Source: Thermococcus sp. (GTDB taxonomy: Archaea; Methanobacteriota_B; Thermococci; Thermococcales; Thermococcaceae). From it: a stretch of 64,000 bases of DNA. The stretch is from NCBI RefSeq assembly GCF_027052235.1, contig NZ_JALUFF010000047.1, positions 1 through 64,000 on the forward strand, in the 5' to 3' direction. Shown here piece by piece: positions 20,706 through 62,991 of this stretch. The notes under the pieces are model-generated. The model saw nothing but the letters and a program-made list of their open reading frames with translations, had not been told where the DNA came from and searched no databases. Position 1 is the stretch's first letter. Each line of letters starts with the position of its first letter. The position numbers and the translations under genes were made by a program.

Positions 20706-21965
20706 ATGAGGAAGGTCCTTCTGCTCGTTCTCGTTCTAGTGGTCATCGCTGGAGGCTGTCTCGGGCAGGTCGAAAACGAAAAGCCCTCAACAACTGCCAC
20801 CACCTCGTCTCAGCCTTTAAGCACCGGCTACGACGTGCTGGAAGAGGGACAGGAAAAGTCCGTGGTGGGGGCAATTAACGCCTTTGCCGTTGACCTTTAC
20901 CTTGAACTGGCCAAGGACGAGGCTAACGTTTTCTTCTCACCCTACAGCGTTGAAACGGCCCTTGCCATGGCATACGAGGGGGCGAGGGGCGTAACGAGGG
21001 AGGAGATGGGGAAGGTTCTCCACTTGCCCCCTGATAACGAGGCGAGGTGGACGGGCTTCAGGTACCTTCTGCTCTCCTTGAAAACATCAAACGGGTCTTC
21101 CTACGTTCTACGAACAGCCAACGCGCTCTGGGTTCAGAAGGACTACCCGTTCAGGGAAGAGTACCTTAGGATTATCCGGGCGTTTTATACTGGCAACGTG
21201 GAGAGCCTTGACTTCGTTAACGACCCTAAAGGCTCTGCGAGGAAGATAAACGAGTGGGTCGAGAACCGGACGAACGGGAGAATTAAGAACATCGTGTCAA
21301 GGCTCAGTCCCGACACGAGACTGATAATAACGAACGCCATCTACTTTAAGGCCAACTGGTCAAGCAGGTTTGAGGCCGCCAACACTAAAAACGAGACCTT
21401 TTACTCCCCCAGCGGTTCCGTTGTTGTTCCAATGATGCACCAGACGGCTAAGCTCCCGTACTTCGAAAACGATGAGCTCCAGGCCCTCGTGATGCCCTAC
21501 GAGGGCGGAAGGCTGAGCATGCTGATAATCCTGCCAAGAAGGGGGAAGTTTGAGGACGTGGAGGAGAAACTGAGCACGGGGTTCATAGCAGAAATCCTCA
21601 ACGGCACGGCGGAGGAGAATGTGGAAGTAGCCCTCCCCAAGTTCAGGCTTGAGAAGGAGTACCACCTGAGGAAGGAGCTCGCGGAAATGGGTATGGGGAG
21701 CGCCTTCACGGTGCCGGACTTCTCGGGAATCTCTTCGGAGGGCAAGCTGGTGATAAGCGACGTGGCACATAAAACCTTCATAAGCGTCGCCGAGAATGGA
21801 ACCGAAGCTGCGGCTGCAACGGCCGTCACGATGACCCTAGCAGCTGCTCCCCGGGAAGAGAACGTGAAACTCTTCAAGGCCGATAGGCCCTTTATATTCC
21901 TCATTTACGACAGAGAGACCGGGGTGATACTCTTCATGGGGAGGCTGGTGAACCCGAAGGAGTGA
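20706..21965 (+). CDS. Lipoprotein serpin (serine protease inhibitor)
   Basis: A 419-aa serpin with an N-terminal lipoprotein signal (VVIAGGC, Cys at about 18) and a short Ser/Thr linker, so displayed on the outer face of the membrane. The serpin core starts near NAFAVDLYLELAKDEANVFF. The reactive-loop hinge is intact (NGTEAAAATAV), which implies an inhibitory serpin able to insert its loop. Counting from the hinge puts the scissile P1 within LAAAP, a small residue that suits subtilisin- or elastase-like proteases. The C-terminal DRPFIFLIYDRETGVILFMG is the standard serpin end. A related inhibitor (Tk-serpin) is known in T. kodakarensis. TATA TTATTTATA and GGTGGTG precede the start. Confidence 0.93.
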   Translation: MRKVLLLVLVLVVIAGGCLGQVENEKPSTTATTSSQPLSTGYDVLEEGQEKSVVGAINAFAVDLYLELAKDEANVFFSPYSVETALAMAYEGARGVTREEMGKVLHLPPDNEARWTGFRYLLLSLKTSNGSSYVLRTANALWVQKDYPFREEYLRIIRAFYTGNVESLDFVNDPKGSARKINEWVENRTNGRIKNIVSRLSPDTRLIITNAIYFKANWSSRFEAANTKNETFYSPSGSVVVPMMHQTAKLPYFENDELQALVMPYEGGRLSMLIILPRRGKFEDVEEKLSTGFIAEILNGTAEENVEVALPKFRLEKEYHLRKELAEMGMGSAFTVPDFSGISSEGKLVISDVAHKTFISVAENGTEAAAATAVTMTLAAAPREENVKLFKADRPFIFLIYDRETGVILFMGRLVNPKE

Positions 21966-21994: not shown

Positions 21995-22738
21995 ATGCCC
22001 CTCTGGAAGGACGGAAAGCTAGGTTTGCCGGTGAGGGAAGCGGTTGAGCTCTTCCCCGACCTCGAAAGGTATCTCGACGAGCGTGGAAGGCTAGACTTCT
22101 CGAACAGAAACGCTAGGATACTCTACAACAGGGCTGTAGCCAAAGCCCTCTTTGGGTTGGACATCGAGTACCATCCAAGGGGCCTTGTCACGACCCCTGT
22201 TTCCCGCTACATCTTTCTTAAAACGTTCCTCCGTGGTGGTGAGAAGGTTTTGGAGATTGGAACCGGGCACACTGCCTTAATGGCCCTTATGGCGGAGAAG
22301 ATCTTCAGCTGCAACGTTACCGCGACCGAGCTCGACGATGAGTTCTTCGAGTATGCCAAGAGAAACACCGAGAGGAATAACGCAAGGATAAGGCTCATCA
22401 AGAGCGACGGAGGAATAATCCGCGGAGTAATTCCCGAAGGCGAGAGGTTTGACGTTATCTTCTCGGCTCCACCCTACTATGAGGCCCCAACGAAGGGCGT
22501 TTTAACGGAAAAGGAAGGCGTCGGTGGTGGGTTGTACGGTGAGGATTTCTCGGTGAGGCTGATAGATGAGGCGCTTGACTATTTGAAGCCCGGTGGAAAA
22601 GTTGCCCTGTTCCTCCCAGATAAAAAGCCGCTTTTAGATGCCATAACTGAAAAGGGGAAAGAATTGGGCTACTCGCCGAAGGACGTTAAGTTCAAGGCCG
22701 GAACTAGGTGGAGGCACAGCCTGGTTTTAACGCTTTAG
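21995..22738 (+). CDS. SAM-dependent RNA methyltransferase, RlmF/METTL16-like
   Basis: A 247-aa class I methyltransferase. VLEIGTGHTALMALMAEKI is motif I, ATELDDEFF motif II, and FSAPPYYEAP the catalytic [N/S/A]PPY motif of N6-adenine type enzymes. The N-terminal RLDFSNRNARILYNRAVAKA resembles the RlmF/METTL16 family. The target RNA is unknown. CTTTTAAATC 20-29 nt before the ATG suggests a leaderless mRNA. Its TAG stop merges with the end of the C/D box RNA on the other strand. Confidence 0.85.
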   Translation: MPLWKDGKLGLPVREAVELFPDLERYLDERGRLDFSNRNARILYNRAVAKALFGLDIEYHPRGLVTTPVSRYIFLKTFLRGGEKVLEIGTGHTALMALMAEKIFSCNVTATELDDEFFEYAKRNTERNNARIRLIKSDGGIIRGVIPEGERFDVIFSAPPYYEAPTKGVLTEKEGVGGGLYGEDFSVRLIDEALDYLKPGGKVALFLPDKKPLLDAITEKGKELGYSPKDVKFKAGTRWRHSLVLTL

Positions 22739-22806
22739 GGACTCAGACCGTGGGCGTCTCAGCACTCACGCCGGTCTCAGAGGAGGTGCTTTCTCCTCAT
22801 CGTCCC
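22738..22806 (-). ncRNA. C/D box guide sRNA (2'-O-methylation guide)
   Basis: Read on the minus strand, 69 nt are closed by a terminal stem GGGAC/GTCCC. Inside are C box ACGATGA (6/7 to RUGAUGA), a 16-nt guide, D' box CTGA, an 11-nt spacer, C' box GTGCTGA (6/7), a 12-nt guide GACGCCCACGGT, and D box CTGA. This is the compact archaeal C/D architecture bound by L7Ae, Nop5 and fibrillarin. By the N+5 rule the D guide would methylate a U in a target containing ACCGTGGGCGTC, and the D' guide a G in AGGAGGTGC. I could not place the targets. It lies exactly between two RNA methyltransferase genes. Confidence 0.78.
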
Positions 22807-22814
22807 TACATCAG

Positions 22815-24005
22815 TCACTTCATATCTTCCACGTAGAGGAAGAGAGCCTTAAGGTATTCCGTGTCCTTTGAGGCCATCAGTATTGGGTGGTCAGGAGCCT
22901 GCGTCCTGTAGGGCTCGAGCATCTTGAGGAACTTTCCGGCCTTAGCGGCCGCGGCAATGACCATATCCTTGAAGGTCTGCATGTCGACGTGCTGGGAGCA
23001 GGAAGCTGTCACAAGTATCCCACCTTCCTTAACGAGCTGAAGGCCAGCGTAGTTCACGTTGAAGTAGGCCCTTAATCCGCGCTTGAGGTCTTTTTCGTGC
23101 TGGACGAAGGCTGGTGGATCAAGGATTACCATGTCGAACTTCTCGCCCTTCTTTATCATCTCCTCCATAACCGGGAAGGCCGAGCCAACGATGTACTTCA
23201 TTCTATCTTCAACGCCGTTCAGTTTCGCGTTCTCCTTGACCATGTTGATGGCCCAGGGAGATTTATCGACGGCGACAACTTCCTCGGCCCCTGCAACGGC
23301 CGCGTGGATGGCAAAGCCACCGGTGTACGTGAATACATCCAGAACGCGCATTCCCGGCTTGACGTACTTCTCCAGAGCGATTCTGTTCTCCCTCTGGTCG
23401 AGGAAGAAGCCGGTCTTCTGACCGCGCATGTCAACGATGAACTTGGCTTTTCCTTCCTCTATAATCGTCCGGTACTTCTCCTTTCCGAGGAGTACGCGCT
23501 CTATCTCAGGTAACCCTTCTCTCCTTCTCGAACGACCGGTGTTCTTCTCGAAGACGGTCTCTATTTCTGGCTCGACTTCCATTATTGCCTCCGCAACATC
23601 GAGCTTGAAGCGTTCCATCCCAACGCTCGAAATTTGGAGTGATGCTATCTCGTTGAATCGATCCACGATAAGACCGGGCAGGTAATCAGCCTCGCCGTAG
23701 ACCATTCGGTAAGCTTTATCGTAGCCGAGAACCCTCTTCCTGTACTCGTTGGCCTTTCTGATTCTCTCGCGGAAGAGCTCCTTGTTTATCTCGGTCTCCC
23801 TGTCCTTGGTAACTAGCCTGACCATTATGTTGGAGTTGGGGTTGACGAAGCCCCTTCCGAGGAACTTGCCCCCTCGGGTGTAAACCTCAACGATGTCGCC
23901 GGGTTCAAACTCACCTTCGGTTCTCACAACGCCCTTCTTGAAGACTATCATCGCGCCTTTGCCTATTGCCCTCGCCGCTTGAGCGTCAACGATTACCCTC
24001 GCCAT
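22815..24005 (-). CDS. PUA-domain rRNA methyltransferase, RlmI-like
   Basis: A 396-aa class I SAM methyltransferase of the RlmI/PH1915 family, which makes 5-methylcytosine in 23S rRNA in bacteria. The N-terminal PUA domain starts RVIVDAQAARAIGKGAMIVF; a central EEHD-like domain follows; the catalytic domain has VLDVFTYTGGFAIHAAVAGA (motif I), ILDPPAFV (motif IV) and TASCSQHV with the candidate cysteine. The third in-frame ATG (24005) is chosen: the family starts MARV and GGTGATGA precedes it. Confidence 0.88.
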   Translation of the reverse strand: MARVIVDAQAARAIGKGAMIVFKKGVVRTEGEFEPGDIVEVYTRGGKFLGRGFVNPNSNIMVRLVTKDRETEINKELFRERIRKANEYRKRVLGYDKAYRMVYGEADYLPGLIVDRFNEIASLQISSVGMERFKLDVAEAIMEVEPEIETVFEKNTGRSRRREGLPEIERVLLGKEKYRTIIEEGKAKFIVDMRGQKTGFFLDQRENRIALEKYVKPGMRVLDVFTYTGGFAIHAAVAGAEEVVAVDKSPWAINMVKENAKLNGVEDRMKYIVGSAFPVMEEMIKKGEKFDMVILDPPAFVQHEKDLKRGLRAYFNVNYAGLQLVKEGGILVTASCSQHVDMQTFKDMVIAAAAKAGKFLKMLEPYRTQAPDHPILMASKDTEYLKALFLYVEDMK

Positions 24006-24033
24006 TTTCATCACCGGCCTTCTTTCGGCGATA

Positions 24034-29780: not shown

Positions 29781-30622
29781 GGGGAAAGGCCGAGATAGTT
29801 GCTTCCATGCTCATCTGGGGAAGCGTTGGGATATTCTCACGCCTTTCAGGGTTAAGTGGTCTTGGGGTGGCGTTTGCCAGGGTTTCGCTCGGCTCGATGG
29901 TTCTCCTGCCCGCCCTACTATTTAGGGGGAAGCTCAAGAAAGCATTCGAGACGTTGATGGAGAGAAAACTTTCCGCTCTTCTTCTCGGCCTCGTGCTGGC
30001 CCTCAACTGGGTCTTTCTGTTCACGGCCTTCAACAGGACGACCATAGCCAATGCCGTCCTCGTCTATTACCTCTCACCCGTTATGGCAACGCTTATGTCG
30101 TGGCGTTTCCTCGGGGAGAGCATAGGAAGAAGGTGGATGCTCATCGGGATGGCCTTTACTGGCTTTCTGATAATAGCCCTCGGCAACGGCTTTGATGTCG
30201 GGAGCAAGGACTTTCAGGGGGTAATCCTCGCCCTGATTGCCGGGTTCTTCTACGCCATGATACCGAACCTCGGGAGGGCTATGCGTGACGTTGACGGTGA
30301 GGTTCTGACTTTTCTCCAGCTTGCCCTGGCGTCTCTCTTCCTCCTGCCATTTGTCCTGTTCCTCCCCGTTGGAAAGCCAGTTCCCTGGGCGGTTGCCATC
30401 TTAGTCCTCGTCCACACAGTTCTGGCCCTCTACATCTACATGGACGGCCTCAAGAAGGTTGAAGTAAACGAGGTTGCCCTCCTCAGCTACCTCGACCCTT
30501 TGAGCGCGGTGGTTTATGCCTTTCTGGTCTTTGGGGAAGTTCCAACCCTAGAAACAGCTATAGGTGGAGCTTTAATTCTGCTGGCATCTGCAATGGATGT
30601 TGTTCTGGCGAGGGGGCCGTAG
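29777..30622 (+). CDS. DMT-superfamily (EamA) transporter
   Basis: A 281-aa membrane protein with ten predicted helices as two five-helix EamA repeats (first repeat from VASMLIWGSVGIFSRL, second from VILALIAGFFYAMI). Such proteins export or import small metabolites; the substrate is unknown. The ATG at 29777 overlaps the priS stop as ATGA. The last 16 nt coincide with the 3' end of the RNase P RNA on the other strand. Confidence 0.82.
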   Translation: MRGKAEIVASMLIWGSVGIFSRLSGLSGLGVAFARVSLGSMVLLPALLFRGKLKKAFETLMERKLSALLLGLVLALNWVFLFTAFNRTTIANAVLVYYLSPVMATLMSWRFLGESIGRRWMLIGMAFTGFLIIALGNGFDVGSKDFQGVILALIAGFFYAMIPNLGRAMRDVDGEVLTFLQLALASLFLLPFVLFLPVGKPVPWAVAILVLVHTVLALYIYMDGLKKVEVNEVALLSYLDPLSAVVYAFLVFGEVPTLETAIGGALILLASAMDVVLARGP

Positions 30623-30929
30623 CCCGCCTTCTGTATGGAGGGGGCATTCGACTGAGCGGCCTACCACGGGGCTCACACCGGGAACTCATCGCCCCTCCCT
30701 CGGCCTTGCACCCCGCGGGACGGCCGTTTCACCGAATCCCCCGGGATAGTCTGCGGGTTAGCTCGGGGCTCTCGCGAGCCCCTTCGCACGCTTCATCCAC
30801 ATCCCCCGGGGGCCGTGTCGTTTCTGCGCCGTTGCCCGGCCTCTCGGCCGGTGCCTTGCGGCACCGCGGCCCCGGTGCGGTGGGCGGAACTTCCTCGGGA
30901 GCACCCCGGGAGCCCCCGACCCCCTCGCC
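30607..30929 (-). ncRNA. rnpB: RNase P RNA
   Basis: The catalytic RNA of RNase P, about 323 nt, GC-rich and without a plausible ORF. Ends are set by the perfect 10-bp P1 stem: 5' GGCGAGGGGG at 30929-30920 and 3' CCCCCTCGCC at 30616-30607. Conserved blocks follow in order on the minus strand: GAGGAAGTTCCGCCCACCG, GAAACGACACGG, GATGAGTTCCCGGTGTGAG, and CAGAAGGCGGGCTAC near the 3' end. A TATA box is in place upstream. The 3' end lies inside the last codons of the DMT transporter gene. Confidence 0.93.
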
Positions 30930-62913: not shown

Positions 62914-62991
62914 TGGCGGGCCGGGCGGGATTCGAACCCGCGACCACGGGGTTAAAAGCCCCGCGCTCTAACCAGGCTGAGCTACCGGCCC
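62914..62991 (-). tRNA. tRNA-Lys (anticodon UUU)
   Basis: A full cloverleaf on the minus strand: acceptor GGGCCGG/CCGGCCC, D arm AGCTCAGCCTGGTTAGAGC, anticodon arm CGGGG-CTTTTAA-CCCCG with anticodon TTT, T arm GCGGG-TTCGAAT-CCCGC, discriminator G and an encoded CCA (62916-62914). No intron. A T run (CCTTTTTCTG, about 62900-62909 on the minus strand) follows as probable terminator. Confidence 0.97.

Follow-up and report, generated by a model that had tools for sequence, protein, structure and literature searches.

The locus raises the question of which small RNA occupies the narrow gap between two genes of a Thermococcus sp., and which nucleotides its guides would address. The window, i.e. the whole stretch of DNA analysed here, comprises 64,000 nt of that genome, and the RNA was originally predicted as a guide RNA of the C/D box class, lying between two genes for RNA methyltransferases. 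This prediction is borne out by an Rfam match, by Pfam matches of the flanking genes and by a conserved neighbourhood, and all of its elements, namely the terminal stem, the C, D', C' and D boxes and two guides, are present on the minus strand (Table 1). From 22806 to 22738 the strand reads GGGAC-GAU-GAGGA-GAAAGCACCUCCU-CUGA-GACCGGCGUGA-GUGCUGA-GACGCCCACGGU-CUGA-GUCCC, with guides of about 12 nt (12 and 13 nt) directly 5' of D and D'. That the RNA is an archaeal C/D box sRNA we regard as practically certain.

Table 1. Parts of the sRNA locus and the genes that flank it (positions in the window).
Feature	Position	Strand	Basis or remark
C/D box sRNA gene, RF01128	22738..22806	-	cmscan; conservation in the order
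Terminal stem, 5' arm GGGAC	22802..22806	-	pairs with 22738-22742
C box AUGAGGA, variant of RUGAUGA	22794..22800	-	sequence; parse inferred from stem geometry
D' guide GAAAGCACCUCCU, 13 nt	22781..22793	-	sequence
D' box CTGA	22777..22780	-	CTGA in 85/88 orthologs
D'-C' spacer GACCGGCGUGA, 11 nt	22766..22776	-	complementary to D guide
C' box GUGCUGA, variant of RUGAUGA	22759..22765	-	sequence and relatives
D guide GACGCCCACGGU, 12 nt	22747..22758	-	10 Watson-Crick bp with tRNA-Ser(GGA), N+5 = U44
D box CTGA	22743..22746	-	CTGA in 40/88 orthologs
Terminal stem, 3' arm GTCCC	22738..22742	-	last base shared with the stop codon of the plus-strand neighbour
RlmI-like PUA-domain SAM methyltransferase	22815..24014	-	PF10672, PF17785; upstream, same strand as sRNA
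Methyltransf_10-type (RlmF-like) methyltransferase, convergent	21995..22738	+	PF05971, 35.6 bits (cut-off 23)

Both D and D' boxes are CTGA in the window copy, as for archaeal C/D box sRNAs. The C box, if set flush with the stem, departs from RUGAUGA in one base (U5 to G), and the kink-turn bulge would then be formed by 22801-22799, the three bases immediately ahead of the GA of the C box. The C' box likewise departs in one base (A4 to C), and relatives carry an exact C' box, GTGATGA or ATGATGA. Two other parses were rejected: a C box read as ACGAUGA leaves a 16-nt guide and no kink-turn bulge beside the stem, a C' box read as GUGAGUG leads to a 16-nt D guide, and each fits the relatives worse.

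The stretch 22741-22805 matches the Rfam family RF01128 (cmscan: 73.2 bits, E 1.9e-15, at a gathering score of 45 bits), the family that Rfam names sR43 and describes as sR42. Since RF01128 is already catalogued in Rfam, a claim of a new guide RNA was dropped. The window copy agrees with the family in its boxes, its terminal stem, both guides and its occurrence as a single copy, which is found in 89 of the 94 genomes of the order, with each of the six genera represented; no RF01128 match was found in 14 control genomes. We aligned 88 copies by hand on the D' core GCACCTCC, and the presence of D' positions 2-9 (GCACCUCC) in 88/88 is therefore partly by construction. All five pairs of the terminal stem form in 77/88 orthologs and at least four in 84/88, and several positions show compensatory exchanges (G-C to C-G; A-T to C-G and G-C; C-G to A-T and G-C). 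The D' box is almost constant among the copies, and the D box is more relaxed (CTGA 40, CCGA 31, CGGA 11, CAGA 6).

The single consensus departures in the C and C' boxes might be taken as signs of chance C/D-like motifs, or of a leftover pseudogene, between the two genes. For the family this is refuted by the occurrence in 89/94 genomes, by the compensatory stem changes and by the fate of the Thermococcus kodakarensis ortholog, and for the window copy we give the idea virtually no credence. In the T. kodakarensis genome (G024), whose 16S and 23S coordinates agree with those used for the species in PMC9014305, the RF01128 match lies at 1593071-1593134 on the minus strand, and both guides and all boxes are identical to those of the window copy. 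It falls inside the circular RNA ncRNA03 (1593064-1593134, 71 nt; PMC9014305, Table 1), and is thus the same locus with the same sequence. Circular reads of ncRNA03 numbered 403 in the wild type and 1 in a knockout of the RNA ligase TK1545 (PMC9014305); since the reads all but vanish without the ligase, this ortholog is expressed and circularised by TK1545, the expression data being those of T. kodakarensis and not of the window organism. That study lists ncRNA03 under an ncRNA name of its own; Table 1 gives no sR alias and the main text no target.

The position of the sRNA relative to its neighbours suggests how it may be made. The near-flush placement that had been described for it was confirmed: 8 nt separate the stop codon of the upstream gene (ending at 22815) from the stem, and the last stem base also belongs to the stop codon (22736-22738) of the convergent gene. 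Because so short a distance lies between stop codon and stem, the sRNA is probably co-transcribed with the RlmI-like gene and cut from the 3' end of its transcript, and most archaeal C/D box sRNAs are released from the transcript of a neighbouring gene in such a manner (PMC7994747). Scans for sigma-70 promoters and terminators found nothing, and such models fit archaea poorly. In most genomes the sRNA adjoins at least one of the two methyltransferase genes, usually between their convergent 3' ends and on either strand: 63 copies share the strand of the RlmI-like gene and 19 have the opposite orientation. On an rpoB tree this orientation flips at least eight times while the place is kept (L001-L030, L093-L150 and the window). 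The best NCBIfam matches of the RlmI-like gene are 23S rRNA m5C methyltransferases, all below their equivalog cut-offs, and the exact substrates of the flanking methyltransferases are therefore unproven.

Three genomes carry sRNA copies that depart from the rpoB tree. The copy of G080 (L013, genus g4) is of the Thermococcus type, unlike those of its rpoB neighbours, and the copies of G034 (L121) and G016 (L132) resemble those of G031 and G043 and not those of their rpoB neighbours, a pattern that suggests exchange of the locus. Elsewhere in the window lie an archaeal RNase P RNA gene (30608-30928, minus strand; RF00373, 195.6 bits) and a tRNA-Lys(TTT) gene (62914-62991, minus strand). An ORF of 419 aa (20706-21965, plus strand) looks, from a by-eye reading of its translation, like a lipoprotein serpin, a serine protease inhibitor; to our knowledge serpins are unusual in archaea.

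Both guides were compared, ungapped and in D-box register, with the rRNAs and the 44 tRNAs of a complete relative (G027); rRNA of relatives was used because it is absent from the assembly of the window genome. This kind of search, already proposed with the original prediction for ACCGTGGGCGTC, led to tRNA-Ser(GGA) as the best match of the D guide: guide positions 2-11 form ten Watson-Crick pairs with CCGTGGGCGT, which places U44 at N+5. The tRNA-Ser(GGA) of the window genome is identical to that of G027. The complement of the D core ACGCCCACGG occurs once in the 16S rRNA, 23S rRNA and 44 tRNAs of this relative, where 0.03 occurrences are expected from dinucleotide-shuffled targets; judged against shuffled guides the guide-tRNA score is borderline, as 8 of 300 dinucleotide and 24 of 300 mononucleotide shuffles reach it. 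About 70 of the 88 copies keep ACGCCCACGG or a close form, and all tRNA-Ser(GGA) matches (71 genomes, six genera) contain CCGTGGGCG. The guide positions on either side of the duplex, 1 and 12, differ among the copies (position 1: T 63, C 14, G 7, A 4), and the core is constant in the copies that keep it. Taken together, these matches make methylation of U44 of tRNA-Ser(GGA) the target assignment that we favour for the D guide, with some confidence.

Alternatively, both guides might act on rRNA, the D' guide on 16S G991 (E. coli G1050) and the D guide on 16S U568 (E. coli about 626) or 23S U1465, so that the sRNA would modify or chaperone the 30S subunit. Dual rRNA guides are common in archaea (PMC4644070), and the D guide forms eight Watson-Crick pairs with 16S ACCGTGGG, the D' guide nine with 16S AGGAGGTGC. 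The 16S match of the D guide, however, spans positions 1-8 only, of which position 1 varies freely, and leaves the conserved positions 9-11 unpaired, whereas pairing with the tRNA extends over more of the guide, positions 2-11. We consider action on rRNA by both guides unlikely.

The proposal of tRNA-Ser(GGA) U44 as a target appears to be new. The snoRNAdb predictions for P. furiosus that PMC7668247 quotes name the tRNAs for Trp, Leu, Gln, Val, Gly and Asp as targets and no tRNA-Ser. An analysis of P. furiosus tRNAs by mass spectrometry also treats tRNA-Ser(GGA), with no 2'-O-methyl-U44 in its main text, where the coverage of this position is not visible. An archaeal Um44 guide was not found in the open-access literature searched, snoRNAdb itself lying outside this search.

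If U44 is the target, guide and tRNA may be expected to change together, and the comparison of genomes provides supporting evidence. In some genomes the anticodon stem of tRNA-Ser(GGA) is altered, with CCAGTGGGC in place of CCGTGGGC. Among the 78 genomes in which both the guide and the tRNA state are known, an intact guide goes with the canonical tRNA in 63 and with the altered one in 1 (G072), a lost or damaged guide with the canonical tRNA in 5 and with the altered one in 9. The guide is thus degenerate or damaged in 9/10 altered-tRNA genomes against 5/68 canonical ones (Fisher p 1e-7, with relatedness ignored, which inflates the significance). The rpoB tree requires at least eight changes of the guide state and at least six of the tRNA state; the three to four independent guide/tRNA pairs that fall on well-supported branches do not suffice for a paired test to reach significance, and the guide almost never changes in the opposite direction to the tRNA. 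Exceptions are the five genomes that lost the guide but have the tRNA target, and G072. A search for a replacement guide (GCCCACKGNCNGA pattern, 16 genomes) gave 24 matches, none of which has a C/D sRNA layout in the upstream sequence shown. The co-variation backs the U44 target without proving it, and we incline slightly to the broader view that in Thermococcaceae U44 of tRNA-Ser(GGA) is ribose-methylated by the RF01128 sRNP and that the guide was lost several times, mostly together with a change of pair 28-42 in the anticodon stem of the tRNA.

The D'-C' spacer is of 11 nt and complementary to the D guide in the window copy and most Thermococcus copies, whereas it measures 3-8 nt in many other genera. 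Folding of the window RNA alone (-29.5 kcal/mol, z -3.3) pairs the spacer GACCGGCGUGA with the D guide (GACC/GGUC and GGCGU/ACGCC), and copies with a lost guide pair ACCCG/CGGGT instead. As an observation apart, the spacer (22766-22776) resembles the tRNA target minus three bases (CC-GGCGU versus CCGUGGGCGU). It is because of this spacer-guide pairing that the D guide of the Thermococcus form might be thought to be no longer a guide but half of a structural hairpin, in a molecule of which only the D' guide is functional. The longest spacer-guide stem averages 3.81 against 3.21 for shuffled spacers and exceeds all 300 shuffled means (maximum 3.60), an excess that is not independent because the rows are related. 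Genera whose spacers are short and lack this pairing nevertheless retain the 10-nt guide core, and protein-free folding may not reflect the RNP. We regard loss of guide function in the Thermococcus form as improbable and retain the D guide as a guide; it is possible that self-pairing preceded the loss of the guide in the copies that lack it.

The D' guide is more difficult to assign. Its core GCACCTCC is complementary to 16S GGAGGTGC, with G991 (E. coli G1050 by alignment) as the site, and in some species also to the 23S rRNA at G2720 (G2624 in the E. coli alignment). Neither match is significant, since an 8-mer is expected 0.33 times by chance and 63 of 300 shuffled guides equal the 16S match. 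Position 10 is T in 13/88 copies, which would extend the 16S pairing, and A in 74/88, which would extend the 23S pairing. Action of the D' guide on the 16S equivalent of E. coli G1050 is thus put forward tentatively, as somewhat short of an even prospect; otherwise the 23S rRNA or another RNA would be its target.

A different role had been raised for the D' guide: owing to its likeness to the 16S rRNA 3' tail, the GCACCTCCT core complements ribosome-binding sites, so that it might pair with Shine-Dalgarno sequences and regulate translation through mRNA leaders. This suggestion was not supported. In five genomes, near-complete complements of the guide (12 nt, no more than one mismatch) occur at roughly the rate of a reversed-pattern control, and outside the sRNA itself none stands at one conserved place across all five. 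Two of the 20 sites examined directly precede a plausible gene start, most do not, and a short match to ribosome-binding sites would lack selectivity. Complementarity to 16S AGGAGGTGC accounts no less well for the likeness to the anti-Shine-Dalgarno tail, and regulation through mRNA leaders appears very improbable to us.

The explanation that we propose, and in which we have good though not full confidence as a whole, D-guide target included, is that of an archaeal C/D box sRNA with two guides, which represents RF01128 at this locus. It would be cut from the 3' end of the RlmI-like transcript, closed by its terminal stem and, like the T. kodakarensis ortholog, partly circularised by an ATP-dependent RNA ligase. 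Together with L7Ae, Nop5 and fibrillarin it would direct ribose 2'-O-methylation at N+5, the D guide to U44 of tRNA-Ser(GGA) and the D' guide to the 16S equivalent of E. coli G1050.

Other archaeal C/D box sRNAs likewise guide the ribose methylation of tRNAs, among them the tRNA-Trp intron guide and that for Cm56 in Pyrobaculum (PMC7994747, PMC5372725), which differ from our prediction in tRNA and site. Yeast and other eukaryotes methylate U44 of tRNA-Ser by means of a protein, Trm44 (PMC5372725, PMC9957541), i.e. the same nucleotide in the same tRNA family, but by a protein enzyme in place of the guide RNA and fibrillarin predicted here; the two would be analogous, not homologous. If the D target is true, an unexplained conserved guide would be joined to a single nucleotide of a single tRNA, and, as with Cm56, one and the same ribose methylation of a tRNA would turn out to be carried out either by a protein or by an RNA-guided complex, depending on the organism. 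Close relatives with and without the guide and its target would offer a natural comparison.
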